Assembly (NCBI RefSeq): GCF_000024365.1
Contig: NC_013235.1
Coordinates: 806,001-870,000, forward strand
DNA length: 64,000 bases
Origin: Nakamurella multipartita DSM 44233
Lineage (GTDB): Bacteria; Actinomycetota; Actinomycetes; Mycobacteriales; Nakamurellaceae
Direction: 5' to 3'
The translations under genes and the position numbers were made by a program. Positions 39,104 through 54,956 of the stretch are shown here, piece after piece; position 1 is the stretch's first letter; every line of letters starts with the position of its first letter. The notes beneath the pieces were generated by a model. The model had not been told where the DNA came from and made no database searches. It saw nothing but the letters and a program-made list of their open reading frames with translations.

Positions 39104-39772
39104 TCAGATCAGGCCCATCTTGCCGGCCAGGTGCACGGCCTCGGCCCGGCGGGAGACGCCCAGCTTGCGCAGGATGTTGCCGACGTGAAATTTGACGGTG
39201 GTGTCGGAGATGAACAGCTTCTTGCCGATCTGCACGTTCGACATGCCCCGGGAGAGCAGCTCGAGCACCTCCTGCTCGCGCGAGGTCAGCTTCTTGTCCG
39301 CGTCGACCGGTCCGGCGTGCAGCCCACGGACCATGGCGGCGGCGCTGCGCGCATCGAAAGCGCTGCCGCCGCGGCTGATGTCGCGGATCGCCCGGATCAG
39401 CGCCGAGGTGTCGACGTCCTTGACCACGTAGCCGCGGGCGCCGTTGTGGATGGCCGCCAGGACCAGGTGATCGTCGATGAAGGTGGTCAGCACCAGCACA
39501 CCCAGGTCGGGATGCTCGGCGACCAGGGCCGCGCACAGGTCCAGGCCCTCGGTGTCCGAGCCGGAGGAGAGCTTGAGGTCGAGCACGACGATCTGCGGCC
39601 GGGCCTGCCCGACGACGGCCTTGGCCGCCTCGATCGTCGCCGCCTCGCCGACCACTCGCAGGTCGGGCTCGCGTTCCAGGATGGAGCGCAGGCCGTGCCG
39701 GACGATCGCGTGATCGTCGATCAGCACGATCTTGATCGGGGCCGCCGGGTCGGCGGTGCGCGGGTCGGTCAC
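39104..39772 (-). CDS. mnoR: NarL/LuxR-type response regulator, MnoR-like
   Basis: A 222-residue response regulator. The receiver domain has the acidic pair IDDH, the phospho-acceptor Asp in VVLDLKL (about residue 62), the Thr of LVLTTF and the Lys of YVVKDV. The C-terminal LuxR helix-turn-helix reads LTSREQEVLELLSRGMSNVQIGKKLFISDTTVKFHV. GTG 39772 overlaps the kinase stop (GTGA). In Mycobacterium smegmatis the MnoSR pair lies with mftM and activates the mno methanol dehydrogenase. The same gene set here suggests control of the mno operon at 49758 and perhaps of the alcohol dehydrogenase next door. Symbol by context. Confidence 0.8.
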   Translation of the reverse strand: MTDPRTADPAAPIKIVLIDDHAIVRHGLRSILEREPDLRVVGEAATIEAAKAVVGQARPQIVVLDLKLSSGSDTEGLDLCAALVAEHPDLGVLVLTTFIDDHLVLAAIHNGARGYVVKDVDTSALIRAIRDISRGGSAFDARSAAAMVRGLHAGPVDADKKLTSREQEVLELLSRGMSNVQIGKKLFISDTTVKFHVGNILRKLGVSRRAEAVHLAGKMGLI

Positions 39773-41094
39773 GACGGCTCCAGATCGGTCGGGTGGATGT
39801 CGGTGAAATCCGCCGCGAAGCGCACCGGCAGCGGGATCCGGACCTCGATGCGCACGCCGCCGAGCCGGGCCCGGCGGAAAGCGATGCTGCCGCCGACCTT
39901 CTCGGCCCGGACGGCCATGTTGGCCAGGCCCCGGTGCCGGCCGTCGGTCATCGCGGCCCGTTCGATGCGCAGCAGCCGGCTCAGCGTGACCGGATCACCC
40001 GTGCCGTCGTCGGCGATGCTGAGCACCAGCAGGTCGGGGCGGTAGCGCAGCCGGATCACCGCGCGCTGCGCCTGCGTGTGGGTGGCCACGTTGAACAGTG
40101 CCTCGCCGGCGATCCGGACCAGCTCGTGGTCGGCCCGGGGATCGATCGGGGTAGCCCCGCCCTCGACCCGCACCTGGACCTGCAGCCGCGGCCGGTAGTG
40201 CCCGGCCAGCTCCGAGATCAGCTCCGGCAGCGTCGCCGGGGACTCGCCGCTGGCCGCGTGGTGCAGCGCGTAGATCGCGTCCCGCAACTGCTGGATCGCT
40301 TCCTGGGTCAGGTGTTTCGCGCGGTCGAGTTGCTTGGCCAGGTCGGCCCCGGCCGGGCCCAGGTCGGCCGCGTCGCCGCGGGCCATCTCCACCGCCATGC
40401 CGGCGCTGAGCACGAACTGGCTCACGCTGTCGTGCAGTTCGCGGGCGATCCGGTGCCGTTCGGCGTCCAGCAGTTCGCGTTGCCGCGCGGCCACCAGCCG
40501 CTGCTCGGTGGCCCGCAACTCGTTGGTGCGCAACGTCAGATTGCGGTTCTGCTCGGTCGCCTCGTCGTAGAGCCGCCGGGCCCGCTGGTGCAGCTCCAGC
40601 CCGGCCTGGTACTGCTCGGAGGTGTGCAGGGCCACCGCCGCCTGGTTGGCCAGCACCCGCAACACCGACAGGTCACCGGGTTCCGGTGGGGCGGGCAGGT
40701 CGTGAATGGCGACCAGGCCGCCGACCAGTTGACCCTCCAGCGTCATCCGCACCCGGATCAACGAGGTGTCCGGTTCGGTCGGTTCGACCGAACCGGATCT
40801 GATGGCCTGCAGTTCCGCCCGGACCACCTCGAGCAGGTCCGCGTCCTCGATCGCCCGACCGGTTCCGTCGACGGCGACGAACCGGGGGCGGGCTCGGGTC
40901 AGGCTGCCGTCGCACAGGGCCAGCACCACCCAGGGCGCGGACAGGTGGTCGCCGGCGGTCCGGGCCACCTCCTCGAGCAGCGAGCGGGGCCCCTCGTCGG
41001 TGCGGATGAACTCCCGGTAGTACGAACGCTTTCCGGACCGGACCCCGGTGAGCAGGGCCAGATCCGGTGGCTCGCCGCGAGAATGGTCGTTCAT
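39769..41094 (-). CDS. mnoS: GAF-domain sensor histidine kinase, MnoS-like
   Basis: A 441-residue soluble kinase without membrane helices. A GAF-like sensor domain (residues ~30-185) precedes a coiled coil (ELRATEQRLVAARQRELLDAE), the HisKA_3 phospho-acceptor box ERHRIARELHDSVSQ (His at about 245) and a HATPase_c domain with an N-box (EALFNVATHTQA) and a G-box (DDGTGD). It would sense a cytoplasmic signal and phosphorylate the overlapping response regulator. ATG 41094 lies 14 nt beyond the alcohol dehydrogenase stop, so the three are probably one operon. Naming follows the M. smegmatis MnoS arrangement; the ligand is unknown. Confidence 0.8.
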   Translation of the reverse strand: MNDHSRGEPPDLALLTGVRSGKRSYYREFIRTDEGPRSLLEEVARTAGDHLSAPWVVLALCDGSLTRARPRFVAVDGTGRAIEDADLLEVVRAELQAIRSGSVEPTEPDTSLIRVRMTLEGQLVGGLVAIHDLPAPPEPGDLSVLRVLANQAAVALHTSEQYQAGLELHQRARRLYDEATEQNRNLTLRTNELRATEQRLVAARQRELLDAERHRIARELHDSVSQFVLSAGMAVEMARGDAADLGPAGADLAKQLDRAKHLTQEAIQQLRDAIYALHHAASGESPATLPELISELAGHYRPRLQVQVRVEGGATPIDPRADHELVRIAGEALFNVATHTQAQRAVIRLRYRPDLLVLSIADDGTGDPVTLSRLLRIERAAMTDGRHRGLANMAVRAEKVGGSIAFRRARLGGVRIEVRIPLPVRFAADFTDIHPTDLEPS

Positions 41095-41108
41095 GCCGGC
41101 GGCCGCCG

Positions 41109-42329
41109 TCACATCGCGGCCCGGAGCAGGCCCTCGATGTCGACGGCGTCGGCGCTCCGGGGATTGGTGGACAGGCACGCATCCTGCAGGGTGGACTGGG
41201 CCAGCCGGGGGATGTCCTCGTCGCTGACGCCGATGTCGCGCAGCCCGCGCGGCACCCCGACCTCGTCGCCCAACCGCCGCACGTAGGCCGAGAGCAGGCC
41301 GGCGACCTCCTCGGGCGGTGCGCCGGCCACCGGCAGCCCGACGGCCAGGGCCAGGTCGCGGAAGCGGTCGGGGATCGTCTGCGCGTTGTACCCGATGACG
41401 TGCGGGAGCAGGATTCCGTTGATCACCCCGTGCGGCAGGTCGAGCAGCCCGCCCACCTGGTGGCTCATGGCGTGGGTGGCGCCGAGGATGGCGTTGGTGA
41501 AGGCCAGCCCGGCCTCCAGGCTGGCCTGCGCCATCTGGGTACGGGCCCCGAGATCCTCGGGGCGCTGGATGGTGGCCGGCAGGTAGTGGCTGACCAGCCG
41601 GACCGCGGACAGCGCGTGCCCGTCGGCGAGCGGGTTGTGGGCCAGCGAGACGAACGACTCGATGCCGTGGGTGAGCGCGTCCAGACCGGTGGCCGCGGCC
41701 AGCCATTCGGGCATGGTGGTGAGCAACCGTGGATCGGTGATCGAGATGTCGGGCACCAGGGCCCGGCCCATGATGGTGATCTTCACCGCGCTCTCGGTGT
41801 CGGTGACGATGCAGAACTGCGAGACATCAGCGCCGGTACCGGATGTCGTGGGGATCATGAGCAGCGGCGGGATGGGCCGGGTGACCTGGTCGACACCCGC
41901 GTAGTCCAGGATCGAGCCGCCGTTGCCGGACAGGATGGCGATGCCCTTGGCCGCGTCCATCGCCGACCCGCCACCGATGCCGATGAGAACGTCGCACCCG
42001 GACTCCCGGTACTGCTCGTACCCCTGGGTGATCTCGACGTCCTTGGGATTGGGGGTGATGCCGCGCCAGACCACCGGGTCCAGCCCGGCGCCGCGCAGGT
42101 GGACCAGCAGCTGGTGCACCCAGCCGGCGTCGTGCACACCGTCGTCGGTGACCACGAACGGGCGCCGGGCGCCGAGCCGGGCCGCGGCGAAGCCGGCCTC
42201 GGCCAGCGCGCCGAGGCCGAAGACGACCTCAGGGGCGTGGAACTTGACCACCGGCGACGGGCGGGGCGGGGTGGCGCCTGCAGCGTGCGTATGCGTCCGG
42301 ATCACTTCCTTGTGCCCGATGGCGACCAT
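41109..42329 (-). CDS. Iron-type (group III) alcohol dehydrogenase
   Basis: A 406-residue dehydrogenase that oxidises alcohols to aldehydes; relatives act on 1,3-propanediol or methanol. Seen: nucleotide motif GIGGGSAMDAAKG, PTTSGTGADVS, and metal ligands Asp and His in LDALTHGIESFVS, then His residues in HAMSHQVGG and LPHGVING. I choose ATG 42329 because GGAGG lies 5 nt upstream; ATG 42359 has no such site, and a still longer frame would translate a hexamer repeat as RHRHRH. It leads the kinase/regulator genes. A comparable gene sits beside mnoR in mycobacteria. It may also need mycofactocin, but that cannot be read from the sequence. Confidence 0.9.
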   Translation of the reverse strand: MVAIGHKEVIRTHTHAAGATPPRPSPVVKFHAPEVVFGLGALAEAGFAAARLGARRPFVVTDDGVHDAGWVHQLLVHLRGAGLDPVVWRGITPNPKDVEITQGYEQYRESGCDVLIGIGGGSAMDAAKGIAILSGNGGSILDYAGVDQVTRPIPPLLMIPTTSGTGADVSQFCIVTDTESAVKITIMGRALVPDISITDPRLLTTMPEWLAAATGLDALTHGIESFVSLAHNPLADGHALSAVRLVSHYLPATIQRPEDLGARTQMAQASLEAGLAFTNAILGATHAMSHQVGGLLDLPHGVINGILLPHVIGYNAQTIPDRFRDLALAVGLPVAGAPPEEVAGLLSAYVRRLGDEVGVPRGLRDIGVSDEDIPRLAQSTLQDACLSTNPRSADAVDIEGLLRAAM

Positions 42330-42634
42330 GCCCACCTCCGTCCGACCAGCCGTTGTCATGGCGCTGCATCGATGTCGATGTCGATGTCGATGTCGATGTC
42401 GGTGGCGGCTCGGTCGGGGCCGATCGGCCGGAACATCGTCTCCCGTCGGCCGGTCGAATCGTACGTCCCCGCGGCCGTCCCCGGTCGTTCTCCGGTCGAT
42501 CGGTTCATCGTGCTCCCGCCCGGCCCACCGCTCGCCCACCCGGCCGACCACCTGCCGGCTGCCTGCACGCTACGGGCCCCGGCGGCGGGTGCGAACCGCT
42601 GGACGGACAGGGTCGACCTACCCATTCGGGCAGG
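42330..42634. other. Intergenic region with hexamer microsatellite
   Basis: This 305-base gap between mftE and the alcohol dehydrogenase (both minus strand) has no supported gene. It contains the (GATGTC)5 array at 42371-42400 and presumably the promoter of the dehydrogenase-mnoS-mnoR group. Confidence 0.55.
42371..42400. repeat. (GATGTC)5 tandem repeat
   Basis: Five exact copies of the hexamer GATGTC, preceded by GCATC, about 42 nt upstream of the alcohol dehydrogenase start. The location suggests it lies in the promoter or leader of that gene, where copy-number change could alter expression. Confidence 0.95.
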
Positions 42635-43333
42635 TCAGTCCGGGGCCAGCAGCCGCGCGATGGTCGCCAGCAGCCGGCCGCCCATCTCGGCGAAGACCCG
42701 CCGGCCCTCCTCCGCGTCGGCGCCGGTGGGTTCGCCCAGGACGCCGGTGGGGCTGACCGCGCGGATGCCATCGGTGCTGATCCGGGGCATCAGCTCGGCG
42801 ATCGGCGCGGTCTGGCCCGGCACCGCCCGGTCCATCCGCACCCGGTCGGGGTCCAGGTGCAGCATCAGGCTGGTCTCGCGATCGCCGGCGTGCGGGTCGG
42901 CCCGCGGTCCGGCGCTGGCCGCGTGGTGCACGTGCAGCGAGCGGCCCTCGTACCTGCTCACCTCGACCGCCCGGCGCAGCGCATCGGCGTTGCCGCCGTG
43001 GCCGTTGACCACCAGCACGTGCCGCCAGCTGCCGGCGGCGTGCCGGACGAACTCGATCAGCACGGTGGCCAGTGCCTCGGTGCCGATGGACAGGGTGCCG
43101 GGGAAGTGCGCGTGCTCGCCGCTGGCGCCGTAGGGCATCACCGGGGCCAGGCCGACCTCGGGTCGCCGGGCGTGGGCCCACTGGGCCAGCCGGGTGGCGA
43201 TGACCGTGTCGGTCGAGAGCGGCAGGTGCGGTCCGTGCTGTTCGGTGGAGCCCAGCGGCAGCAGCAATACACGTCGGGGTGAGCGGTCGACCTCGGGCCA
43301 GGTGGCCGCGGCCAGCGGTTCCAGGCCGTTCAT
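42635..43333 (-). CDS. mftE: Mycofactocin peptidase (creatininase family)
   Basis: A 232-residue metal-dependent amidohydrolase. MftE cleaves the MftC-modified precursor to release the C-terminal Val-Tyr-derived product AHDP. The creatininase fold metal ligands are visible: Glu and His in GSTEQHGPHLPLSTDT, His in GASGEHAHFPGTLS, NGHGGN, and Glu in AGDRETS. ATG 43333 overlaps the mftF stop (ATGA). Last gene of the mftR-SDR-mftF-mftE operon. Confidence 0.95.
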   Translation of the reverse strand: MNGLEPLAAATWPEVDRSPRRVLLLPLGSTEQHGPHLPLSTDTVIATRLAQWAHARRPEVGLAPVMPYGASGEHAHFPGTLSIGTEALATVLIEFVRHAAGSWRHVLVVNGHGGNADALRRAVEVSRYEGRSLHVHHAASAGPRADPHAGDRETSLMLHLDPDRVRMDRAVPGQTAPIAELMPRISTDGIRAVSPTGVLGEPTGADAEEGRRVFAEMGGRLLATIARLLAPD

Positions 43334-44847
43334 GACGAGCCGACGGTCCGCCGGCGCCGCCACCGCGGCAGATCGCGCACCCGGGGCAGCACCGGCTCCG
43401 GATTGCGGTGGCGCAGCACCCCCTGCCAGACGCCCAGGCTGTAGGCGGCATCGTCCAGCGCGTGCGCGACGAGGGTCTCGGCGGCCAGCCGCACCAGGCC
43501 GATGCGGCCCGGGTCCCGCTGGGCCGGGCCGGTGCGGCCGGCGCCCGCCCGGACGTCCTTGGCCACCTGATAGGCCAGCCCGGCTGCGGCCGCGACGGCC
43601 AACCGCCGGCCCACCCGCGGTCGCAGCAGGCCGACCAGCAGGGTGACCGGCAGCATCGGACGGATCAGCCAGCGGCCCAGGGCGGCCCCGGCCCGCAGGT
43701 GTCCCAGGGCGGCGAGCTTGCGGGCGTGCGCGGGAGACAGCTCGGGCATGCCCCAGGGCGCGATGACGGCGGTGACGGCGGCCGCCGCGACGCCCAGGGC
43801 CGGTTGCGCCAACACGGCCAGCAGCCACGGGCCCAAGGACCAGATCGACACGTCCAGGTGCTGCAGCGCGCCGGGATGCTTGGCGGCCAGGTCGGCGGCG
43901 CCGGTGCCGTAGAGCCGGCGCCGGTTCAGCGCGGCGGTCAGGGTGCCGCGCGGCCGGTGGGCGACGTGCACGGTCGGGTAGTACCGCACGGCGCCCTGCT
44001 CGAGCAGCCGCCAGACCAGGTCGACGTCCTCACCGACATGCATGGCCTCGTTGAAGCCGCCGGCCCGGCGGAACGCCTCGGCGTCGACCAGCATCGCCGC
44101 GCTGGGCACGTACGACACCGCCCGGCCGGGACCGACATCGCTGGGGTCGGCACCGAGATCCAGCGCGCAGACGCGTTCTTCGAACCAGCCGCCGGACCCG
44201 GTGCCGGGCAGCGGGACGATCTGCGGCGCGGCCAGCAGCACCCGGGGGCCGGGATCGCCGGCCGCGCCACCGGTGTCGGCGGTCTGGGTCAGGTGCGCCT
44301 TGAGCGCGCCGATCCATTGCCGGTCGGGGATGGTGTCGGCGTCCAGGAACGCGATCCAGGGGGTGCGGGCCAGGGCGGCACCGGCGTTGCGGGCGGCGGC
44401 CGGGCCGCGGAACCGTTCGTGCCGCAGCACCTGCAGGCCGGGGCGTTCGTCGGCCAGTCCAGCGAGCGGATCGGGGGAGCCGTCGTCGACCAGGATGACC
44501 GGCAGATCGGCCGGCAGGGTGGCCAGGAGCTCGCGCACCGGACCGGCCGCCGACCGGGCCGGAATGACGACGGTGACGCCGTCGTGGCCGGCGGCCGCCG
44601 GGGCGGGGGCGACGAGCAGCCCGGCGGTGCGCAGCCGGCGCACCAGTTCCTCGACGGCCGCCGGCTCGGGGGGTCGCGGGCGTCCGTCGAGCAGCTCCCG
44701 GACGATGTCGGCGCCGCGGTCGGTCATCGTGATCACCCGGTACGGCGCGCCGCCGGCCAGCGTGGTGCGATCCAGCCAGCTGGTGCCCGGCCCGAGCCGC
44801 CACCGTTGGGCCACCGCCCGCCCCGCCGCCCCGCTCGGCCGGCTCAT
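43330..44847 (-). CDS. mftF: Mycofactocin glycosyltransferase
   Basis: A 505-residue GT2-family glycosyltransferase that adds a beta-1,4-linked glucose chain to premycofactocin. Residues ~1-75 form a small N-terminal domain resembling a PqqD/MftB-like winged fold (TSWLDRTTLAGGAPYRVITM). The GT-A domain follows with VTVVIPAR, LVDDGSPD, the DADTIPDR metal motif and GEDVDLVWRL. C-terminal hydrophobic segments (from about 350) suggest membrane association. ATG 44847 overlaps the SDR stop by ATGA, and its own stop overlaps mftE the same way. Confidence 0.95.
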   Translation of the reverse strand: MSRPSGAAGRAVAQRWRLGPGTSWLDRTTLAGGAPYRVITMTDRGADIVRELLDGRPRPPEPAAVEELVRRLRTAGLLVAPAPAAAGHDGVTVVIPARSAAGPVRELLATLPADLPVILVDDGSPDPLAGLADERPGLQVLRHERFRGPAAARNAGAALARTPWIAFLDADTIPDRQWIGALKAHLTQTADTGGAAGDPGPRVLLAAPQIVPLPGTGSGGWFEERVCALDLGADPSDVGPGRAVSYVPSAAMLVDAEAFRRAGGFNEAMHVGEDVDLVWRLLEQGAVRYYPTVHVAHRPRGTLTAALNRRRLYGTGAADLAAKHPGALQHLDVSIWSLGPWLLAVLAQPALGVAAAAVTAVIAPWGMPELSPAHARKLAALGHLRAGAALGRWLIRPMLPVTLLVGLLRPRVGRRLAVAAAAGLAYQVAKDVRAGAGRTGPAQRDPGRIGLVRLAAETLVAHALDDAAYSLGVWQGVLRHRNPEPVLPRVRDLPRWRRRRTVGSS

Positions 44848-45662
44848 CCGACGAACCCGGCGTCGACCCGCAGCTCGGTCCCGGTGACCGCGCCGGCGTC
44901 CGGTCCGCACAGCCAACTGACGGCCGCGGCCACGTCCGCCGGTTCGATCAGCCGGCCCAGTCGTTGGGACGGGCCGAACTGCTCGATGTCGGTGAGTCCG
45001 TAGATCTGCGCGCTGCGTTCCAGCAGGGTGGTCCGGGTGCTGCCCGGCAGGATCGCGTTGGCGGTCACCCCGAACTCGCCCAGGTCGGCGGCCAGGGAGC
45101 GGAGGTAGCCCAGAGCTGCGTGTTTGGACGCGACGTAGGCGGCCAGCCGGGGCAGCCCGACCTGACCGGCGACCGAGACGACGGCGACGAACCGGCCGGT
45201 GCCCTTGGGGGCGGTCAGCAGCAGCGGCACCGCCGCCCGGGCCAGGTTGGCCACGCCGTAGAAGTTGGTGTCCAGGTCCAGGGCCAGCTCGGCCCGGGTG
45301 TACTCCCAGGCCGGGCGGGCCGCGCCGATGATGCCGGCCACCGCGACCACCGCCCGCAGCCGACCGGCCGGCACCTGCCGGACGGCGCCGGCCAGCGCGT
45401 CCTCGTGGCGCACATCGGCGGTGGCCGTGAGCACCTGGCCGCCGGCCGACCGGCAGGCCTGCGCGGTCCGCTCCAGGTCGTCGGCGGTGGCCAACGGGTA
45501 CTCGACGGCCGCGTGCAGGTCGGCGGCCGCCCGGTCGATCAGCAGCAGGTCGAACCCGTCCCGGGCGAGCCGGGCGGCGGTGGCCGCCCCGATGCCGCGG
45601 GCCGCGCCGGTGACGATCGCGAACGGCCGGGCCCCGTCTTCGGGGTCCAGTGCGGTGGTCAT
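44844..45662 (-). CDS. Mycofactocin-coupled SDR-family oxidoreductase
   Basis: A 272-residue short-chain dehydrogenase. It has the Rossmann motif VTGAARGIGAATA, the SDR catalytic Ser region (VVSVAGQVG) and YVASK. The insertion after the first beta strands (DRAAADLHAAVEYPLATADDLERTAQ, residues ~42-68) is the mark of the mycofactocin-coupled subfamily. These enzymes keep NAD(H) tightly bound, so the cofactor must be re-oxidised in place by mycofactocin. The substrate is unknown; related members act on terpenoid alcohols such as carveol. It overlaps mftR and mftF, which ties its expression to cofactor synthesis. Confidence 0.93.
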   Translation of the reverse strand: MTTALDPEDGARPFAIVTGAARGIGAATAARLARDGFDLLLIDRAAADLHAAVEYPLATADDLERTAQACRSAGGQVLTATADVRHEDALAGAVRQVPAGRLRAVVAVAGIIGAARPAWEYTRAELALDLDTNFYGVANLARAAVPLLLTAPKGTGRFVAVVSVAGQVGLPRLAAYVASKHAALGYLRSLAADLGEFGVTANAILPGSTRTTLLERSAQIYGLTDIEQFGPSQRLGRLIEPADVAAAVSWLCGPDAGAVTGTELRVDAGFVG

Positions 45663-46297
45663 GGGGGTACCTCGCCGTCGGGAGAGCCGAGCAGGGCCAG
45701 CGACTGGTGCAGCAACTCGATCAGTTCGGCGCCGTCGTCGGCCAACCATTGCTCGTACGCCGACAACGCCGCGCCCAGGGCCAGGTGGCCCAGGGTTCGC
45801 GGAATCAGGTCATCCGGGTCCAGCCCCAGCCGACCGGCGGCGAATCGAGCGACCACATCGCGCCAGGCTGCGTAGTGTAGCGTCGAATAGGCCTGCAGGG
45901 AAGGCGAACTCAGGATCAGCCGCATCCGGGTGCGCAGCGACTCGGTGGCCGGCCGGTCGAAGGAATTGAAGTCGATCACGGCGGCCCGGATCGCCTGGAC
46001 CACGGTCAGCTCCGGCGGGCAGTGGGCGAACCAGTGCGCGAAAGCCGCCAACTGGCTGTCGAACTCGCCCCACACCGCGTCGTTCTTGGACTTGAAGTAC
46101 CGGAAGAACGTGCGCCGGCCGATGCCGGCGGCGGCGGCGATCTCGTCGACCGAGGTCACCTCGAAACCCCGCTCGGAAAAGATCTCCAGGCAGATGCGCT
46201 CCAGCTCGCCGCGGCTGGTCGCCGCCGGCCGGCCGGGAGCGGCGGGACCCGCCGGGGCGACCGCGGCGGTCGGGGCCGGAGCCGATCGGTGAACCAC
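45659..46297 (-). CDS. mftR: TetR-family regulator of mycofactocin genes
   Basis: A 212-residue TetR repressor. A Pro/Ala-rich N-terminal 30 residues precede the helix-turn-helix: RICLEIFSERGFEVTSVDEIAAAAGIGRRTFFRYFKSKNDAV. The ligand domain has the IDFNSFDRP and LAYEQWL-type features of MftR. In mycobacteria MftR represses mft genes and is relieved by long-chain acyl-CoA. GTG 46297 (VVHRSAP) is the best start, with AGGTG upstream; the open frame extends to 46513 but crosses mftA. It is divergent from mftA across a 115-bp region with an operator-like palindrome. Confidence 0.92.
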   Translation of the reverse strand: MVHRSAPAPTAAVAPAGPAAPGRPAATSRGELERICLEIFSERGFEVTSVDEIAAAAGIGRRTFFRYFKSKNDAVWGEFDSQLAAFAHWFAHCPPELTVVQAIRAAVIDFNSFDRPATESLRTRMRLILSSPSLQAYSTLHYAAWRDVVARFAAGRLGLDPDDLIPRTLGHLALGAALSAYEQWLADDGAELIELLHQSLALLGSPDGEVPP

Positions 46298-46321
46298 GCC
46301 GTCACCTATACCTTCGGACAG

Positions 46322-46350
46322 TTGACAGTGGCACTGGGTGCCAATACCGT
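46322..46350 (+). promoter_or_regulatory. mftA promoter with palindrome in the spacer (likely MftR operator)
   Basis: TTGACA (46322-46327), 17 nt, TACCGT (46345-46350). The spacer holds the palindrome GGCACTGGGTGCC (46330-46342). A second GGCAC half-site lies at about 46358. A repressor on the palindrome would lie between -35 and -10. The 11-mer AGTGGCACTGG (46327-46337) recurs upstream of mno. Confidence 0.72.
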
Positions 46351-46412
46351 CGATTGTGGCACGGAGCACTGCCGTTGTCATCCCCCGCAGTATCGGACCA
46401 TGGAGGTTGGTC

Positions 46413-46538
46413 ATGCCGGAAGTCATTGTCGACGAGAAGGTTTCGACGAGCGCGGAGAGTGCGCCGGAGGCCCCGCTGGTGACCAGCGACCTGCTGGTCG
46501 AGGACGTGTCCATCGACGGAATGTGCGGGGTCTACTAG
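46413..46538 (+). CDS. mftA: Mycofactocin precursor peptide
   Basis: A 41-residue RiPP precursor. The leader is acidic and binds MftB; the core is the conserved C-terminus IDGMCGVY. MftC decarboxylates the last Tyr and cross-links it to the penultimate Val; MftE then releases that dipeptide-derived unit. GGAGG at 46402-46406 gives a strong start at ATG 46413. It is the first gene of the plus-strand mftABCD operon and is separated from mftB by 104 nt containing a hairpin. Confidence 0.98.
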   Translation: MPEVIVDEKVSTSAESAPEAPLVTSDLLVEDVSIDGMCGVY

Positions 46539-46559
46539 GCCGGCCCGGTCGGCCGTGAC

Positions 46560-46590
46560 GGGCCGGGGCCGGTCGATGCCGGTCCGGCCC
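46560..46590 (+). terminator. Hairpin between mftA and mftB (possible attenuator)
   Basis: GGGCCGG(GG)CCGG pairs with CCGG(T)CCGGCCC around TCGATG, with one internal bulge. TTCG follows but no T tract. A partial terminator or RNA-stabilising stem here would let mftA RNA exceed that of the enzyme genes. Confidence 0.5.
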
Positions 46591-46642
46591 TTCGCGGCCC
46601 CGTTGGTCGTGTCGGTGCATTCCCGAGAAGCGAGGTTCGACG

Positions 46643-46957
46643 ATGAGTGCTGTCTCGATGGGGGCGCCGACCGGGGCGCCGGTTCCCTTCGTGCCGGAAC
46701 TGCCCTATGAACTCCACCCGGCGGTCGAGGTCCGGCCGGAGCCGTTCGGGGCCCTGCTCTATTCGTTCAAGACCAGGCGGCTGTCCTTCCTCAAGGACCC
46801 GGACCTGGTGCGCGTGGTCCGCTCGTTGGCCGACCACCCGACGGCCGCCGCCGCCCTGCGCGCGGCCGGCATCACCGATCCGGTTCGGTTGACCATGTTC
46901 GAACGGGCGCTGGCCACTCTGGCCACGACCGACACCATCAGGGAGCGCGCGTCATGA
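46643..46957 (+). CDS. mftB: Mycofactocin precursor-binding chaperone
   Basis: A 104-residue RiPP recognition element protein of the PqqD fold that binds the MftA leader and presents it to MftC. Family features: ELHPAVEVRPEPFGALLYSFKTRRLSFLKDP, a beta-rich half, followed by the helical half ending FERALATLATTDTI. ATG 46643 has GAGG at 46632-46635. Its last 4 nt overlap mftC, matching their joint action. Confidence 0.96.
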   Translation: MSAVSMGAPTGAPVPFVPELPYELHPAVEVRPEPFGALLYSFKTRRLSFLKDPDLVRVVRSLADHPTAAAALRAAGITDPVRLTMFERALATLATTDTIRERAS

Positions 46958-48171
46958 CCACTGCCGTCCTGCCGCTGGTCGAGCACTTCGCCCTGGGCCT
47001 GCAGTCGCCGATCTGCCTGACCTGGGAGCTGACCTACGCCTGCAATCTGGCCTGCGCCCATTGCCTGTCCAGCTCCGGGCGGCGCGATCCGCGCGAGCTG
47101 AGCACCGCCGAGTGCAAGGCCGTGATCGACGAGCTGGAGCGGATGCAGGTCTTCTACGTCAACATCGGCGGCGGCGAACCGACGGTGCGGCCGGACTTCT
47201 GGGAGCTGGTCGACTACGCCACCGCCCACAAGGTCGGCGTCAAGTTCTCCACCAACGGGATCAAGATCGACCAGCAGGCGGCGCAGCGGCTGGCCGCCAG
47301 CGACTACGTGGACGTGCAGATCTCCCTGGACGGGGCGACCGCCGAGGTGAACGACTATGTGCGGGGCCGGGGTTCGTTCGACACCGCCATCCGCGCGATG
47401 GAGAACCTGGCCGCCGCCGGCATGGTCGGCTTCAAGATCTCGGTTGTCTGCACCCGGCAGAACCTGGACCAGCTGGACGCGTTCAAGGCCATCGCCGATC
47501 GCTACCGGGCCCAGTTGCGGCTGACCCGGCTGCGCCCGTCCGGGCGGGGCGCCGACGTGTGGGACGAGCTGCATCCCACCGCCGCCCAACAGCGCGAGCT
47601 CTACAACTGGCTGGTGGCCAACGGGGAGAACGTGCTGACCGGGGACTCCTTCTTCCACCTGGCCGCCTACGGCGAGGCGCTGCCCGGCCTGAACCTGTGC
47701 GGGGCCGGCCGCGTCGTCTGCCTGATCGACCCGGTCGGCGACGTCTATGCCTGCCCGTTCGCCATCCACGAGTCCTTCCTGGCCGGAAACGTCCGCTCGC
47801 CCGGGGGTTTCGCCGGGGTGTGGCGCGAGTCGGAGCTGTTCACCGAACTGCGCAAGCCACAGAGCGGCGGCGCCTGCGCGTCCTGCTCGGCCTTCGACGC
47901 CTGCCGGGGTGGGTGCATGGCCGCCAAGTTCTTCACCGGGCTGCCGCTGGACGGCCCGGACCCCGAGTGCGTCAAGGGGTTCGGTGAGATCGCACTGTCC
48001 AAGATCGAACCCGGACGCTCGCCCAAACCCTCGGAGGACCATTCGCACAGCAAGGCGCTGCGCAATGGCCCGGTGATGCTCACCCTCAAGACCCGTCCCT
48101 CCCGCAGTTGCGACGAGAACCCGCTCGCGGGTCTGGCGCCGGCGCGGGACCGGGCCGCCGTCGGCGGATAG
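46954..48171 (+). CDS. mftC: Mycofactocin radical SAM maturase
   Basis: A 405-residue radical SAM enzyme with a SPASM domain. It performs the oxidative decarboxylation of MftA's terminal Tyr and the Val-Tyr cross-link. The radical SAM cluster motif is CNLACAHC (Cys30, Cys34, Cys37). SPASM auxiliary-cluster cysteines are seen in LCGAGRVVCLIDPVGDVYACPF and ACASCSAFDACRGGC, plus a later Cys in PECVKGF. The C-terminal ~50 residues after that are a basic extension. ATG 46954 overlaps mftB. Confidence 0.97.
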   Translation: MTTAVLPLVEHFALGLQSPICLTWELTYACNLACAHCLSSSGRRDPRELSTAECKAVIDELERMQVFYVNIGGGEPTVRPDFWELVDYATAHKVGVKFSTNGIKIDQQAAQRLAASDYVDVQISLDGATAEVNDYVRGRGSFDTAIRAMENLAAAGMVGFKISVVCTRQNLDQLDAFKAIADRYRAQLRLTRLRPSGRGADVWDELHPTAAQQRELYNWLVANGENVLTGDSFFHLAAYGEALPGLNLCGAGRVVCLIDPVGDVYACPFAIHESFLAGNVRSPGGFAGVWRESELFTELRKPQSGGACASCSAFDACRGGCMAAKFFTGLPLDGPDPECVKGFGEIALSKIEPGRSPKPSEDHSHSKALRNGPVMLTLKTRPSRSCDENPLAGLAPARDRAAVGG

Positions 48172-48226: not shown

Positions 48227-49408
48227 GTGGGTAACAAGTGGTTCGAAACCGTTGCCGAAGCGCAACGGCGCGCCAAGAAACGCCTCCCCAAGTCGGTGTA
48301 TCTGGCGCTGGTCGCAGGCTCGGAGAAGGGCCTGACCGTGGCCGACAACCAGGCCGCGTTCGGTGAGCTGGGCTTCGCCCCGCACGTGGCCGGACTCTCG
48401 GCCAAGCGGGATCTGGCCACCACCGTGATGGGCCAGGAGATCTCACTGCCGGTGATCATCTCGCCGACCGGCGTCCAGGCGGTCGACCCGGACGGTGAGG
48501 TGGCGGTGGCCCGAGCGGCCGCCGCCCGGGGTACTGCGATGGGGCTGAGCTCGTACGCCAGCAAACCCATCGAGGAGGTCATCGCGGCCAACCCGCAGAC
48601 GTTCTTCCAGGTCTACTGGTCCGGCAGCCGGGACCAGATCCGGCAGCGGGTCGAGCGGGCCCGGGCGGCCGGGGCCAAGGGCCTGATCCTGACCCTGGAC
48701 TGGTCGTTCTCCATGGGCCGGGACTGGGGCAGCCCGAAGATCCCGGAAAAGGTCAACCTGAAAGCGATGTGGGACTACGCGCCGGAGGCGATCACCCACC
48801 CGCGGTGGCTGTGGTCGTTCGGCAAGACGCTGACGATCCCCGACCTGACCGTGCCGAACCTGACCGACCCGGGGCAGAGCGCTCCCACCTTCTTCGGCGT
48901 CTATTACGAGTGGATGCAGACCCCGCCGCCCACCTGGGACGACGTGGCCTGGCTGGTCGAACTGTGGGGCGGTCCGCTGATGCTCAAGGGCATCTGCCGG
49001 GTCGACGACGCCCGCAACGCGGTCGCGGCCGGTGTCAGCGCGATCTCGGTGTCCAATCATGGTGGCAACAACCTGGACAGCACTCCGGCCTCGATCCGGG
49101 CGCTGCCGGCGATCGTGGACGCGGTCGGCGATCGGGTCGAGATCGTGCTCGACGGCGGGATTCGCCGGGGCAGCGACGTCGTCAAGGCGGTCGCCCTGGG
49201 CGCGCGGGCGGTGATGATCGGCCGGGCCTACCTGTGGGGGCTGGGCGCCAACGGTCAGGCCGGAGTGGAAAACGTCCTGGACATCCTGCGCGGGGGAATC
49301 GATTCCGCCGTGCTGGGCCTGGGACATTCGACGATTCACGATCTCTCGCCGGCCGATCTGGTCATCCCGCCGGGCTTCGAACGGACCCTGGGCGCGGTCG
49401 AGGTCTGA
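48227..49408 (+). CDS. mftD: Mycofactocin FMN oxidoreductase
   Basis: A 393-residue alpha-hydroxyacid-dehydrogenase-family flavoprotein. MftD oxidatively deaminates AHDP to premycofactocin, creating the redox-active alpha-keto amide. Seen: the TIM-barrel start FGELGFAPHVAG, the FMN region ISPTGVQAVDPDGE, FFQVYWSG, KGICRVDDA (active-site Lys), the SNHGGNNLD histidine motif and DGGIRRGSDVVKAVALGARAVMIGRAYL. GTG 48227 with GAAGAAAGG upstream. The gap to mftC is 55 nt. It ends the operon at a strong terminator. Confidence 0.97.
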   Translation: MGNKWFETVAEAQRRAKKRLPKSVYLALVAGSEKGLTVADNQAAFGELGFAPHVAGLSAKRDLATTVMGQEISLPVIISPTGVQAVDPDGEVAVARAAAARGTAMGLSSYASKPIEEVIAANPQTFFQVYWSGSRDQIRQRVERARAAGAKGLILTLDWSFSMGRDWGSPKIPEKVNLKAMWDYAPEAITHPRWLWSFGKTLTIPDLTVPNLTDPGQSAPTFFGVYYEWMQTPPPTWDDVAWLVELWGGPLMLKGICRVDDARNAVAAGVSAISVSNHGGNNLDSTPASIRALPAIVDAVGDRVEIVLDGGIRRGSDVVKAVALGARAVMIGRAYLWGLGANGQAGVENVLDILRGGIDSAVLGLGHSTIHDLSPADLVIPPGFERTLGAVEV

Positions 49409-49462: not shown

Positions 49463-49757
49463 TGCCTGCGTTTGGCGGCCCCGCTGGGGTGCCGAGTGGC
49501 ACTGGTGTCGCCCACGTCGGACCATATGCTCCGATGAGAGTCCGTGCGGCGCCGGCCGCCTCACCCGCCGACCAGCCCGCACCTGTCCATTTGGCCAGGT
49601 ATCACGTCCGATCGGACGGTTTCACCGGTCAGGCCTTCCGCCGGCCGGAACCCGGTCGTAGCGTCAGTGCTGTCTTCGCAAGCGCCGGCTGCGGGCTTCG
49701 AGGCCATCCAATCCGGTGTCCGCCAGGCGATGTCGCCTGCGTGAAAGAGGAGTGACC
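49463..49757 (+). promoter_or_regulatory. mno upstream region with shared mft motif and two dyads
   Basis: This 295-bp non-coding region has three notable elements. AGTGGCACTGG (49495-49505) is identical to the 11-mer overlapping the mftA operator. A 20-bp dyad lies at 49581-49600 (arms ACCTG-CCA / TGG-CAGGT, 2 mismatched pairs). A perfect 14-bp palindrome CGTCCGATCGGACG lies at 49605-49618. The last two are 4 nt apart and about 140-175 bp before the ATG, a place where an activator such as MnoR could bind. No gene seen. Confidence 0.6.
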
Positions 49758-51050
49758 ATGAAGGTCGAAGAACTGCTCAAGCCGTTCCCCATCAAGGAGT
49801 TTCACCCGTTCCCCCGGGCCATGCTCGGGCCGGGTGCGTTCGAGATGGTCGGACCCGAGGCGATCAAGCTGGGCTTTCGCAAGCCGCTGGTGATGACCTC
49901 CGGGCTGCGTGGTTCCGGTCTGGTCGAGCAGTTGATGGGTTCGCTCAAGTGGCACGGCATCGAGGCGGTGCTCTACGACCAGGTGGAGTCCAACCCCAAG
50001 GACTACAACGTCATGGACTCGGTCGCCCTGTACCAGGAGAACGACTGCGACAGCTTCATCTCCATCGGCGGCGGGTCCAGCCACGACGCCTGCAAGGGCG
50101 CCCGGATCTCGGTCGCGCACGACGGCCGCAACGTCAACGACTTCGAGGGCTTCAACAAGTCCGAGAACCCGCGGAACCCCCCGCACATCGCCATCTCCAC
50201 CACCGCCGGTACCGGCTCGGAGACGTCCTGGGCCTACGTCATCACCGACACCACGACCGACCCGAACAACCCGCACAAGTACGTCGCCTTCGACGACGCC
50301 GCGGTGGCCACCCTGGCCATCGACGACCCGACCCTGTACTACACCTGCCCGATCGACTACACCGCGCAGTGCGGCTTCGACGTGCTGGCCCACGCCAGCG
50401 AGCCGTACGTGTCCCGGCTGAACTTCGAGCCGTCGCTGGGCAACGCGATCCGGGCGATCAAACTGACCGCGGAGAACCTGCGTCAGGCCACCTGGAACCC
50501 GACCGATCTGGCCGGCCGCGAAGGCATGATGTACGCGCAGTACATCGCCGCGCAGGCCTTCAACTCCGGCGGCCTGGGAATCATCCACTCCACCTCGCAC
50601 GCGATCAGCGCGTTCTACGACACCCATCACGGGCTCAACAACGCGATCGCCCTGCCCCGGGTGTGGGCGTTCAACATGCCCACCCACTACAAGCGGTTCG
50701 CCGATATCGCCCAGGCGATGGGCGTGGACACCCACGGCATGACCGACGTGCAGGCCGCCGAGGCCGCGCTGGCCGCCGGCATCCGGCTGCTGCGCGACGT
50801 CGGCATCCCGGAGAAGTTCGTCGACGTCAAGCAGGACTCGTACTCCAAGAACCGGCTGGGCCAGGGTCCGACCGAGTACTACAAGAAGGCCCCGGTCATC
50901 AAGGGCGACAAGGCCGATGTCGACCGGATCACCAACCACATCCTGGGCGATGCCTGCACCCCGGGCAACGCCAAGGAGTGCACCTTCGACACCGTGCGCC
51001 CGGTCGTCGAGCACTGCATGAACGGCGACCTGGACGATCTGCTCAGCTAA
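49758..51050 (+). CDS. mno: NDMA-dependent alcohol (methanol) dehydrogenase, Mno/MDO type
   Basis: A 430-residue group III metal alcohol dehydrogenase. Relatives (MNO of Amycolatopsis, MDO/Mno of mycobacteria, ThcE) oxidise methanol and other primary alcohols with a tightly bound nicotinamide and need mycofactocin for turnover. Seen: SIGGGSSHDACKGARI and STTAGTGSETSWAYV for the nucleotide, metal ligands Asp/His in CGFDVLAHASEPYVS, and His residues in IIHSTSHAISAFYDTHHG. The N-terminus VEELLKPFPIKEFHPFPRAMLGPGAFEM is typical of MDO. ATG 49758 has GAGGAG upstream. It is first in a probable seven-gene operon with MoxR, CoxE-like and CbiMNQO genes. Confidence 0.93.
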   Translation: MKVEELLKPFPIKEFHPFPRAMLGPGAFEMVGPEAIKLGFRKPLVMTSGLRGSGLVEQLMGSLKWHGIEAVLYDQVESNPKDYNVMDSVALYQENDCDSFISIGGGSSHDACKGARISVAHDGRNVNDFEGFNKSENPRNPPHIAISTTAGTGSETSWAYVITDTTTDPNNPHKYVAFDDAAVATLAIDDPTLYYTCPIDYTAQCGFDVLAHASEPYVSRLNFEPSLGNAIRAIKLTAENLRQATWNPTDLAGREGMMYAQYIAAQAFNSGGLGIIHSTSHAISAFYDTHHGLNNAIALPRVWAFNMPTHYKRFADIAQAMGVDTHGMTDVQAAEAALAAGIRLLRDVGIPEKFVDVKQDSYSKNRLGQGPTEYYKKAPVIKGDKADVDRITNHILGDACTPGNAKECTFDTVRPVVEHCMNGDLDDLLS

Positions 51051-51144
51051 CGCGACGTTCTCGCCCGCACCACCCATCAGCGTGCCGGCGTGGCCCGGTC
51101 CCCAGCCCGGGACCGGGCCGCGCCGGCCGAACCCAGGAGCCCCC

Positions 51145-52386
51145 GTGAGTACTTTCGCCACTGTCGACGACGTCAGTGCCGCACTGGCCGAGCACGGCTA
51201 CATCCCCGACCGTCGGGTCGCCACCACGGTGTTCCTGATGATGCAGCTGGACCGCCCGGCGTTGCTCGAGGGGCCGGCCGGTGTGGGCAAGACCGAGCTG
51301 GCCAAGGCGATCAGCCTGATCACCGGGCGCCGGCTGGTGCGCCTGCAGTGCTACGAGGGGCAGGACGAGACCAAGGCCCTGTACGACTGGGACTACGGCA
51401 AGCAGCTGCTCTACACCCAGCTGCTGCGCGACAAGATCGGTGAGATCGTCGCCGAGGCAAGTGATCTGGAATCAGCGGTGGACCTGCTGGCCAAGCACGA
51501 CTCGGTGTTCTTCTCCGAGCGGTTCCTGGCGCCGCGACCGCTGTTCGAGGCCATCCACGGGCAGGAACCGGCCGTCCTGCTGATCGACGAGGTCGATCGG
51601 GCGGACGAGGCCCTGGAGGCGGTGCTGCTGGAGACCCTGGGCGAGTACCAGATCTCCATCCCCGAGTTGGGCACGTTCGCGGCCGGAACGGCGCCGCTGG
51701 TCCTGCTCACCTCCAACAACACCCGGGATCTGTCGGCCGCGCTCAAGCGCCGCTGCCTGCATCTGTTCCTGGACTACCCGGACGCCGACCGGGAGCTGGA
51801 GATCCTGCGCAGCAAGGAGACCGGGCTGTCCGACGCGCTGGCCACCCAGTTGGTGCAGGTGGTCCGCGGCCTGCGGGAACTGGAACTGCGTAAGGCGCCC
51901 AGCATCTCCGAGACCATCGACTGGGCCCGCACGCTGGCCGTGCTGGGGGCGCAGGAACTGGACGCGACGATCCTGGCCGACACCGTGTCCGTCGTGGTCA
52001 AGTACGAGCGCGACCACGCCCGGGCGATCAAGGCGCTGCCGAAGCTGGTCGACCCCAACGCGGTGGTACCCGAGCACCGGCCCGAGCACGGTCACGGCCA
52101 CTCGCACGCGCACGGCGGTCATTCGCACAGTCATGCGGACGGCGACCACGAGCACAGCCACGACGACCACGGGCCCAGCCACCCCCACGATTCCGACGAG
52201 GTCGGCGTGGCCCGGCGGGCCGAGAAGGACAAGCCCGGCCGGCACGGGCCGGGCCACTACGGAACACCGCCGTACGCGGCCGACGGCGAGGACCTGGTGC
52301 CCGAGCCGGTGCCCGTGGCCACGGTCACCGCCGACCGGGGCAAGCGTTCCTTCGCGGCCGGCCTCGGCCGTCGCCGCGCCCTGTAG
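51145..52386 (+). CDS. MoxR-family AAA+ ATPase with His-rich tail
   Basis: A 413-residue ATPase; MoxR proteins act with VWA-domain partners as chaperones that activate or insert metal centres. Seen: Walker A GPAGVGKTE (residues 43-51), Walker B LLIDEVDRAD, sensor LLTSNNTRDLS, and the lid domain through about 305. Then follows a strikingly His-rich stretch (residues ~312-350, repeated H-G-H, S-H and D-H units) and a basic end. Such His runs occur in nickel/cobalt-storing chaperones (HypB, UreE). GTG 51145 follows AGGAG at 51135-51139. It lies 94 nt after mno and 8 nt before the VWA gene. Confidence 0.9.
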   Translation: MSTFATVDDVSAALAEHGYIPDRRVATTVFLMMQLDRPALLEGPAGVGKTELAKAISLITGRRLVRLQCYEGQDETKALYDWDYGKQLLYTQLLRDKIGEIVAEASDLESAVDLLAKHDSVFFSERFLAPRPLFEAIHGQEPAVLLIDEVDRADEALEAVLLETLGEYQISIPELGTFAAGTAPLVLLTSNNTRDLSAALKRRCLHLFLDYPDADRELEILRSKETGLSDALATQLVQVVRGLRELELRKAPSISETIDWARTLAVLGAQELDATILADTVSVVVKYERDHARAIKALPKLVDPNAVVPEHRPEHGHGHSHAHGGHSHSHADGDHEHSHDDHGPSHPHDSDEVGVARRAEKDKPGRHGPGHYGTPPYAADGEDLVPEPVPVATVTADRGKRSFAAGLGRRRAL

Positions 52387-52394
52387 GACCGGCC

Positions 52395-53933
52395 ATGCAG
52401 GAGACCATCCACCGGTTCGTCCGGTTCCTCCGGCTGGCCGGGGTCCGGGTCTCGGTGGCCGAGGTGGTCGACGCGGTCACCGCCGCCACTCAGCCGGGCG
52501 TGCTGGCCGACCGGGAGACGCTGCGCGGGGCGCTGCTGGTGACGCTGATCAAGGACCGGCGGGATCGGGAGAGCTTCGAGACCGTCTTCGACGCCTTCTT
52601 CTCCCTGCAGCCGGTCTGGACCGCCGAGCCGGACACCCATTCGCACGCGCACGACGACCTGGTCGACGAGGGTGCGCTGAAGAATTTCACGCTGACCGAG
52701 GAGCCCTCCCAGACGCCGGGTTTCGGCCACAGTCACGACAAGCCCAAGGACATCCGCCGGTACTTCGACCCGAAGGACATGGCCCAGCAGTACAACCTGC
52801 ACCAGGAGGCCGACAAGGTGGACCTGGCCGCCCTGAGCGACGAGATGGTGCTCTCGGCCGACCGCCCGACCACCGATTCGGCCGCCCCGCGGGTGCAGAT
52901 CGAGACCAGCCACCTGCATGGCGCGACGATGCCGCACGAGCTGACCACGGCGACCGGAGCCAAGCTGGACACCAACCTGTCCGTCGCCGAGGAGGCGGCC
53001 TTGATGGACTGGCTGGCCGCCGGCGAGGACCCCGAGCTGCCGCCCGAGGTGCTGGCCCAGTTGCGGACCCAGGTGGCCGGCATCCTGGACAAGCTGCCGG
53101 AGATGCTGCGCAAGCACCTGGCCGCTTTCGCCGCGCTGCGCGAGCAGGCCGTCGAGGGCGCCGAACCGGCCCGGCAGGCCGCGGTGCAGGCGATCTCGGA
53201 GGCCGACCGGGCCCGGCTGGAGGAGACGCTGCGCGAGCTGGTCCGGTCGATGAGCGGCGCGCTGACCCACCGCCGTCGCCCGGGCGCGCGGGGCAAGATC
53301 GACTCGGCCCGCACCATGCGGCAGAGCATGCGGTACGAGGGCATCCCGTTCCGCCCGGTGTCGGTGGTCCGGGCCCAGGACCGGCCCCGGCTGGTCATTC
53401 TCGCCGATGTCAGCCTGTCGGTCCGGCTGAGCACCCGCTTCACCCTGCAGGTCGTGCACGGCCTGCAGCGGCTGGTGCCGCGGGTGCGCACGTTCGCCTT
53501 CGTCGACCAGGTCGCCGAGGTGACCGACGTGTTCGCCGACCATGGCGTCGAGGACGCGCTCGGCCTGCTGATGGGCGGCGACATCCTCGACGTGGACGCC
53601 AATTCCGACTACGGCCAGGTGTTGGTCAGCTTCCTGGAGCAGTACGGCAGCGAGATCAACCGGCGCACCACGGTGCTCATCCTGGGTGACGGCCGCGGCA
53701 ACGGCAAGGACCCCCATCCCGAGGCCCTGGAGGAGCTGTCCCGGCGGGCCCGGGAGGTGATCTGGCTGACCCCCGAGGCGCGGTACTCCTGGGTGCTGGC
53801 CGGATCCGACATGCCGGTCTACGAATCGCTGTGCAGCCGGGTCGAGGTCGTGCCCGATCTGGCCTCCCTGGACCGGGTGGCCCAGAAGTACGCCGGAGCG
53901 AACGCCAAAGGAGGCGTCCATGCATATTCCTGA
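52395..53933 (+). CDS. CoxE-like VWA-domain protein
   Basis: A 512-residue protein. Residues 1-75 resemble the CoxE N-terminus (FVRFLRLAGVRVSVAEVVDA). Two short His patches follow (THSHAHDD at ~81-88 and GHSHDK at ~111-116), then an acidic helical middle. The von Willebrand A domain starts at about 330 with the MIDAS motif DVSLSVR (Asp338), and HLHG and other His residues precede it. CoxE works with the MoxR-type CoxD in assembling the CO dehydrogenase active site, so this is probably the partner of the preceding ATPase. Its 3' end overlaps cbiM by 14 nt, linking it to metal import. Confidence 0.88.
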   Translation: MQETIHRFVRFLRLAGVRVSVAEVVDAVTAATQPGVLADRETLRGALLVTLIKDRRDRESFETVFDAFFSLQPVWTAEPDTHSHAHDDLVDEGALKNFTLTEEPSQTPGFGHSHDKPKDIRRYFDPKDMAQQYNLHQEADKVDLAALSDEMVLSADRPTTDSAAPRVQIETSHLHGATMPHELTTATGAKLDTNLSVAEEAALMDWLAAGEDPELPPEVLAQLRTQVAGILDKLPEMLRKHLAAFAALREQAVEGAEPARQAAVQAISEADRARLEETLRELVRSMSGALTHRRRPGARGKIDSARTMRQSMRYEGIPFRPVSVVRAQDRPRLVILADVSLSVRLSTRFTLQVVHGLQRLVPRVRTFAFVDQVAEVTDVFADHGVEDALGLLMGGDILDVDANSDYGQVLVSFLEQYGSEINRRTTVLILGDGRGNGKDPHPEALEELSRRAREVIWLTPEARYSWVLAGSDMPVYESLCSRVEVVPDLASLDRVAQKYAGANAKGGVHAYS

Positions 53934-54636
53934 CGGTTTCATCAACGCACCGGTCTCGCTGGCCGGCGGGGTCATCGCGGCCGGGCTGATCGTCGTCTCG
54001 GTGCGCAAGGCCGCGGCCGATCTGGATGACCGGCAGGTGCCGCTGGCCGGCCTGGTGGCAGCCTTCATCTTCGCCCTGCAGATGCTCAACTTCCCGGTCG
54101 CCGGCGGCACCAGCGGGCACCTGCTCGGCGGCTGCCTGGCCGCCGTGCTGGTCGGGCCGTGGGTCGGCAGCCTGGCCATGTCGGTGGTGTTCATCGTCCA
54201 GGCGCTGGTGTTCGCCGACGGTGGCCTGACCGCGCTCGGCCTGAACATCATCCTGATGGGCTACACCACCTGTTTTGGTGGCTACGGCATCTTCCTGCTC
54301 ATCCGGAAGCTGCTGCCCGCCAAGCGCTCCGCCGTGGTCACCGCGTCCGCGGTCGCCGCCTGGTGCGGCGTGGTGCTGGCCAGCGTCGTGTTCGTCGGCT
54401 ACTACGCGCTCGGCGGGCAGGGGGGTGCCCCGCTGGGCACGGTCGCGGTGGCGATGATCGGGGTGCACATGCTGATCGGGATCGGCGAGGCCATCATCAC
54501 CGGGCTGACCGTGGGCGCGGTCCTGGCGACCCGACCCGATCTGGTCTACGGTGCCCGGGATCTGCGACCGGCGCTGCTGGTCGGCACGGTCGATCCCACC
54601 GGCCCCGCGGCGAGCACCCGGGGATCGTCCGCATGA
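53920..54636 (+). CDS. cbiM: Cobalt/nickel ECF transporter substrate-binding subunit
   Basis: A 238-residue membrane S-component that binds Co2+ or Ni2+. The N-terminus MHIPDGF places Met1 and His2 in the pore, and His67 in GGTSGHLLGG is the third ligand position known from CbiM/NikM structures. About 6-7 helices. ATG 53920 is backed by the near-perfect AAAGGAGG (53907-53914), even though it lies inside the VWA gene. Cobalt and nickel forms cannot be told apart by eye. No cob/cbi synthesis genes or urease/hydrogenase genes are nearby. Confidence 0.95.
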   Translation: MHIPDGFINAPVSLAGGVIAAGLIVVSVRKAAADLDDRQVPLAGLVAAFIFALQMLNFPVAGGTSGHLLGGCLAAVLVGPWVGSLAMSVVFIVQALVFADGGLTALGLNIILMGYTTCFGGYGIFLLIRKLLPAKRSAVVTASAVAAWCGVVLASVVFVGYYALGGQGGAPLGTVAVAMIGVHMLIGIGEAIITGLTVGAVLATRPDLVYGARDLRPALLVGTVDPTGPAASTRGSSA

Positions 54637-54956
54637 GCCGCCGGTCGCTCACCTGGTTCGTGCTGCCGGGTGTCGGGATCGCCTTGATCCTGGCCTTTTT
54701 CGTCAGCCCGCTGGCCAGTTCCGCACCGGACGGGCTGGAACGGGTGGCCATCGACCAGGGCTTCGAGGCCCAGGCCACCGCCCACGCCATGGCCGACGCG
54801 CCGCTGGCCGACTACGGAGTGGCCGGAGTGCAGACGCCCTGGTTGTCCACCGGGCTGTCCGGGGTCATCGGCGTCCTGCTGTGCTTCGTGCTGGCCGGCG
54901 GGGTCGGGTTGGCCATCCGTCGAGCCCGTCGCCGCACGGCGACGCCGGCAGGGTGA
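54633..54956 (+). CDS. cbiN: PDGLE-domain small subunit (CbiN role)
   Basis: A 107-residue protein with two membrane helices and the motif SSAPDGLERVA between them, the PDGLE domain that replaces or equals CbiN in many Co/Ni transporters. It is needed with CbiM for metal loading. ATG 54633 overlaps the cbiM stop (ATGA), and its stop overlaps the cbiQ start. Symbol by role; strictly a PDGLE protein. Confidence 0.85.
   Translation: MSRRSLTWFVLPGVGIALILAFFVSPLASSAPDGLERVAIDQGFEAQATAHAMADAPLADYGVAGVQTPWLSTGLSGVIGVLLCFVLAGGVGLAIRRARRRTATPAG

Follow-up and report, generated by a model that had tools for sequence, protein, structure and literature searches.

A palindrome in the spacer of the predicted mftA promoter of Nakamurella multipartita as a very probable MftR operator, with a conserved layout at actinomycete mycofactocin loci

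Mycobacteria and other actinomycetes use the redox cofactor mycofactocin in alcohol metabolism. Nakamurella multipartita is among the species listed as having mycofactocin (PMC3023750), and the window analyzed here, a 64,000-nucleotide stretch of its chromosome, contains mycofactocin genes on both sides of an intergenic gap between mftR and mftA. The genes and predicted elements are as follows.

42635-43339, minus strand: mftE, peptidase, leftward operon, start approximate (TIGR03964, 329.5 bits)
43330-44847, minus strand: mftF, glycosyltransferase, leftward operon, start approximate (TIGR03965, 295.8 bits)
44844-45662, minus strand: mycofactocin-coupled SDR, second gene of the leftward operon (TIGR04504)
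45659-46297, minus strand: mftR, TetR-family repressor (TIGR03968, 275.8 bits against a cut-off of 224.9)
46322-46327, plus strand: predicted -35 of the mftA promoter, TTGACA; the TT recurs at this offset, and 54 of 74 loci share the 17-bp spacing
46329-46343, no strand: predicted MftR operator core, TGGCAC-TGG-GTGCCA; single copy in the genome, core of the published Omft, top matrix score in the window
46345-46350, plus strand: predicted -10 of the mftA promoter, TACCGT, of TAnnnT type; position-specific conservation
46353-46381, minus strand: possible mftR promoter, ATGACA-17-CACAAT, a weaker prediction; the sole minus-strand pair in the promoter scan, with similar pairs in relatives
46413-46538, plus strand: mftA, mycofactocin precursor peptide ending in IDGMCGVY (TIGR03969, 50.5 bits against 25)
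46643-46957, plus strand: mftB (TIGR03967)
46954-48171, plus strand: mftC, radical SAM maturase (TIGR03962)
48227-49408, plus strand: mftD (TIGR03966)

The mftR, mftA, mftB, mftC, mftD and SDR genes were identified by NCBIfam profiles. The GTG start of mftR at 46297 is inferred from an AGGTGA Shine-Dalgarno-like stretch, and relatives of the encoded protein in the PDB include 2rae and 8x0a, the latter itself named MftR. On the minus strand, mftR, the SDR gene, mftF and mftE are tightly packed and co-oriented (42635-46297), with the mftR stop and the SDR start overlapping as ATGA at 45659-45662. Therefore, the gap divides two divergent mycofactocin operons, beyond merely a regulator and its target. 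Farther out, an NDMA-dependent methanol dehydrogenase and MadB/MadC-like genes lie 3' of mftD within 49716-53933, and the mycofactocin region is followed at 53920-56478 by CbiM-, CbiQ- and CbiO-like genes, a set for a cobalt ECF transporter. On the left side are a MadS-like histidine kinase (39769-41706) and an ErcA-like alcohol dehydrogenase (41109-42551), whose listed frames overlap.

Read directly from the sequence upstream of mftA, TTGACA (46322-46327) and TACCGT (46345-46350) are separated by a 17-base spacer (46328-46344). A preliminary description of this DNA had called the pair a good promoter for mftA. This holds for the -35, a 6/6 consensus match, but less so for the -10, which agrees with TATAAT at just 3 of 6 positions and is absent from the output of a sigma-70 scan. 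The actinobacterial form of the -10 is TAnnnT, to which TACCGT conforms, and in the alignment of loci described below the conservation of the corresponding columns is 0.72 (T17), 0.73 (A18) and 0.84 (T22). From these boxes, mftA transcription is predicted to start at about 46356-46358. A literature search gave no published mftA start site; in the passages of PMC8022548 covered, the only start site mentioned is that of a mycofactocin peptidyl-dipeptidase gene.

The palindrome that had been placed inside this spacer, in the mftR-mftA gap, is indeed there, and it is one base wider per arm than first described. The sequence GGCACTGGGTGCC (46330-46342), which holds a GGCA-N5-TGCC core, is widened by the pair T46329/A46343 to TGGCAC-TGG-GTGCCA (46329-46343), a 15-bp palindrome with 6-bp arms that occupies positions 2-16 of the 17-bp spacer between the predicted boxes. 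A possible second half-site at about 46356-46373 (GTGGCACGGAGCACTGCC), seen by eye, was rejected; a similar stretch occurs in the closest relative (L023) and is absent from the other two relatives of the same genus.

In GC-rich DNA, a short perfect palindrome proves little by itself, and the case for an operator rests on position and conservation. The exact TGGCACN3GTGCCA occurs once in the 64-kb window, where no other place comes within two mismatches of it (5.8 expected). It is likewise single in the 6,060,298-base, single-contig genome, which has four further sites at one mismatch, and the composite pattern TTN6GNCAYN3RTGNCN2TAN3T is found once genome-wide, with a reversed-pattern control giving 0. 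Scored with a position matrix trained on 70 sites from outside the genus, the palindrome reaches 16.2, the highest value in the window, and the next different site scores -1.5. A relaxed palindrome scan of the same genome for other targets was discarded as too loose (234 forward against 183 control matches).

An MftR operator has been described in Mycobacterium (Mycolicibacterium) smegmatis, where EMSA and DNase I footprinting place MftR on TCCATTCTGGCACTCGATGCCATATAT upstream of mftA, MftR overproduction represses the mft genes and the inducer is a long-chain acyl-CoA (PMC8728441). The same study surveys Mycobacterium and Mycolicibacterium, draws the consensus T-N2-GGCA-N5-TGCC-N2-A from 83 mycobacterial sequences and reports that single-base replacements in the operator did not impede MftR binding (PMC8728441); the terms spacer, RNA polymerase and autoregul are absent from its main text. 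Like this operator, Omft, the window site lies upstream of mftA, contains the GGCA-N5-TGCC core and is accompanied by a regulator of family TIGR03968. The distance to mftA is also similar, with the window core at -84 to -70 and the M. smegmatis footprint at -79 to -53 (core at about -72 to -58). Unlike the published Omft, the window site lacks the outer T-N2 and N2-A, having an A at 46327 and a T at 46345. In our 74-locus alignment, the columns of these outer bases fall where the -35 ends and the -10 begins, and the outer bases of the published mycobacterial Omft thus look like promoter, not operator. Because these columns fall in the promoter and published variants kept binding, we did not treat the outer bases as defining. 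The tolerance of single-base replacements also means that the exact palindrome may matter less than its appearance suggests. A literature search of titles and abstract openings, with subscription journals mostly outside its coverage, returned no work on an MftR operator outside mycobacteria, and the window site is a new instance outside mycobacteria of an operator type known from mycobacteria.

Conservation was assessed across actinobacterial mftA loci. The gene turned up in 30/61 relatives, in 93/296 members of the class and in 23/197 members of the phylum, sets that overlap. After a second copy of one locus was left out (L081, a copy of L005), they comprised 136 distinct loci, of which 77 include an mftR hit and 59 do not. 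L116, with mftR on the same strand, falls outside the 76 divergent loci. L042 is within the 77 through a weak partial TetR hit 1.4 kb off, its true MftR lying on another contig, and was excluded from the minus-strand scan alone (73 loci). Relatedness of the loci inflates all the conservation counts that follow. Phylogenetic footprinting of the mftR-mftA gaps, which had been proposed as a check, recovered the palindrome: at least 8 of the 10 bases of TGGCAN5TGCCA are matched by 70 of the 77 mftR-hit loci, where shuffles give about 7, and at least 9 by 43, where shuffles give about 0.5. Without an mftR hit, at least 8 core bases are matched at 21/59 loci (about 5 in shuffles). By position matrix, 74 of the 76 divergent loci score above a threshold of 8, which was our own choice, on a matrix trained on the same loci.

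The promoter boxes are fixed relative to the palindrome. Of these 74 loci, 54 have TTnnnn and TAnnnT on either side of it at exactly 17 bp from each other (with shuffled flanks, 0.35 on average and 3 at most); the pair is placed at -6/+17 in 36 of them and at -7/+16 in 18, and 68 loci have a spacing of 16-18 bp. With 54 loci against 0.35 expected, the comparison indicates selection on the operator-in-spacer layout. When right flanks are exchanged among loci, the 17-bp count falls from 54 to 35 on average (at most 50 in 1000 runs), so both boxes appear to shift together against the operator, as those of a real promoter would. A second set of named genomes, found with MftC and overlapping the 136 loci, yielded 80 loci, of which 78 were readable (mftA was not found in L203, and L230 was too short). 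A divergent mftR hit is present in 48, of which 40 score above the threshold, in genera that include Rhodococcus, Pseudonocardia, Frankia, Streptomyces, Arthrobacter, Microbacterium and Geodermatophilus. In most of the other eight, for example in Actinomycetospora, the palindrome is recognizable and the boxes are shifted or poorer. Judged from these alignments, the element is common to most examined actinomycetes that have mycofactocin genes together with MftR.

The protein side is similarly constant, with a recognition-helix stretch RRT.FRY conserved in more than 90% of aligned MftR sequences. Arm covariation was considered as proof of dimer binding and went unused, since at the variable positions of 74 sites (52 distinct) complementary pairs were no commoner than in shuffles; dimer symmetry therefore rests on consensus and not on compensation. 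GC-rich DNA is rich in short palindromes and the -10 is weak, both of which speak for a chance match of palindrome or promoter. Nonetheless, such a match has a negligible probability given a single occurrence in 6.06 Mb and class-wide conservation at the same offset.

At the 59 mftA loci without a nearby mftR, an MftR over the family cut-off is encoded elsewhere in 25 genomes and in none of the other 34. The site is present at mftA in 16 of the 25 and in 2 of the 34 (Fisher test, 1.8e-6). Both site-bearing genomes without an MftR over the cut-off are fragmented drafts (G282 and G306, loci L039 and L040); their operators are perfect, and the missing genes probably reflect assembly gaps. It is conceivable that a different regulator binds the palindrome and MftR binds elsewhere, as TetR proteins abound in these genomes, many of them homologues below the cut-off, and as those two genomes keep the site. 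We consider this improbable in view of the co-occurrence with MftR, the published footprint on the same core (PMC8728441) and the fact that the site follows mftR to new neighbors.

This last point comes from 25 non-adjacent mftR genes, a set that includes G197 and excludes both G312, where mftR adjoins a second mftA copy, and the sub-cutoff homologue L167. All 25 genomes carry the site at mftA, at mftR or at both (mftA alone in 9, the mftR gap alone in 9, both in 7). The operator-like site beside mftR, found in 16 of 25, is of a GTCA type with lower matrix scores in L161, L165 and L166, L166 being the weakest. The divergent neighbor of these 16 relocated mftR genes is the mycofactocin OYE 1 gene in 12, mftD in 2 and mftE in 2. 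Where it is the OYE 1 gene (TIGR03996; L142-L149, L153, L154, L156 and L162), the gap holds one or two MftR-type operators. In L147, L148, L153 and L156, a single gap holds two operator-like palindromes that are separated by 27 or 42 bp and may serve one direction each. GTCA...TGAC replaces GGCA...TGCC in L013, L016, L129, L161, L165, L166, L168, L189, L196 and L216, and the MftR partners of such operators, in those visible and judged by eye, seem to diverge past the recognition helix. The site is missing at mftA in nine genomes that encode MftR, seven from one genus and two from another family; a search of these nine up to 1.4-1.5 kb upstream for a missed operator gave none that was convincing, with L109 containing a masked N stretch.

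The suggestion that a dimer at this site blocks transcription in both directions is better supported on one side than on the other. Toward mftA, boxes flank the operator in 54 of 74 loci. Toward mftR the picture is less sure, since no mftR-side element at a fixed offset is conserved across all loci. The mftR start expected from ATGACA-17-CACAAT is an estimated 2-4 bp off the operator edge. Promoter-like pairs on the minus strand occur in 29 of 73 loci (6.5 in shuffles), and for 20 of 35 minus-strand hits the end of the -10 lies 15-19 bases to the right of where the operator starts; many of these hits apparently come from one related, mycobacterial-looking group. TetR-family repressors of the TetR, AcrR and QacR type have operators over a divergent promoter. 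The window arrangement is alike in its small dimeric repressor, divergent neighbor gene and palindrome over promoter elements, whereas MftR differs from them in its 15-bp core with a 3-bp center and its long-chain acyl-CoA inducer (PMC8728441). Since mftR heads a leftward operon with the SDR gene, mftF and mftE, two-way repression would make sense, and from the sequence we consider it likely.

The operator could instead serve mftA alone, with the promoter of the mftR operon outside MftR control. In keeping with this, the mftR side lacks an element conserved at a fixed offset, and for 9 of the 25 non-adjacent mftR genes the 260 bp or so preceding the aligned start hold no operator, while the site is retained at mftA. 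In 5 of those 9, however, mftR lies on the same contig and strand some 6-7 kb downstream of mftA, and could therefore be read from the controlled operon. Nine other genomes have the site in the mftR gap and not at mftA, and the minus-strand pairs exceed expectation, most with the -10 just outside the operator. We thus regard control of mftA alone as possible but rather unlikely, and two-way repression as the preferred reading.

If mftR transcription started near 46346, the palindrome would be part of the transcript and foldable as a hairpin, and could act as an attenuator in the mftR leader. This was rejected as very improbable. The fold is weak (energy z of only -1.2, with 25 of 200 shuffles folding equally well), 45600-47000 contains no terminator-like site, arm changes are not compensatory, and what is conserved goes with the mftA promoter boxes, which lie on the opposite strand.

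Taken together, the palindrome is very likely the operator of MftR, encoded next door. This proposal of the preliminary description is strengthened by a core equal to that of the M. smegmatis footprint and by co-occurrence of the site with mftR across the class; the contrary results do not outweigh the published footprint and conservation. Without inducer, an MftR dimer would occupy TGGCAC-TGG-GTGCCA in the mftA promoter, between its -35 and its -10, and would keep RNA polymerase off, leaving mftABCD silent. Binding of an inducer, presumably long-chain acyl-CoA as in M. smegmatis, would free the operator. The predicted mftR start is only a few bases from the site, and the leftward operon mftR-SDR-mftF-mftE is therefore probably repressed from it as well. 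For N. multipartita itself, binding, steric exclusion, inducer and autorepression are all inferred.

Beyond the single published footprint, the comparison adds that the palindrome tracks MftR over 136 loci, as what appears to be a spacer-fixed operator that is also present at the new partners of mftR. We lean, with some reserve, toward a broader model in which a promoter with an MftR operator as its spacer is the ancestral mycofactocin switch across actinomycetes. Under this model, a relocated mftR would have a copy at its divergent mycofactocin neighbor (OYE 1, mftD or mftE), making the regulon readable from sequence; the operator would exist in two dialects, GGCA and GTCA; and the published outer bases would belong to the promoter and not to MftR. 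A class-wide operator would provide a simple rule for predicting MftR-controlled genes outside mycobacteria, and in several genomes it predicts an extra MftR target, the flavin oxidoreductase gene mycofactocin OYE 1. It would also give a ready test of how general induction by acyl-CoA is.
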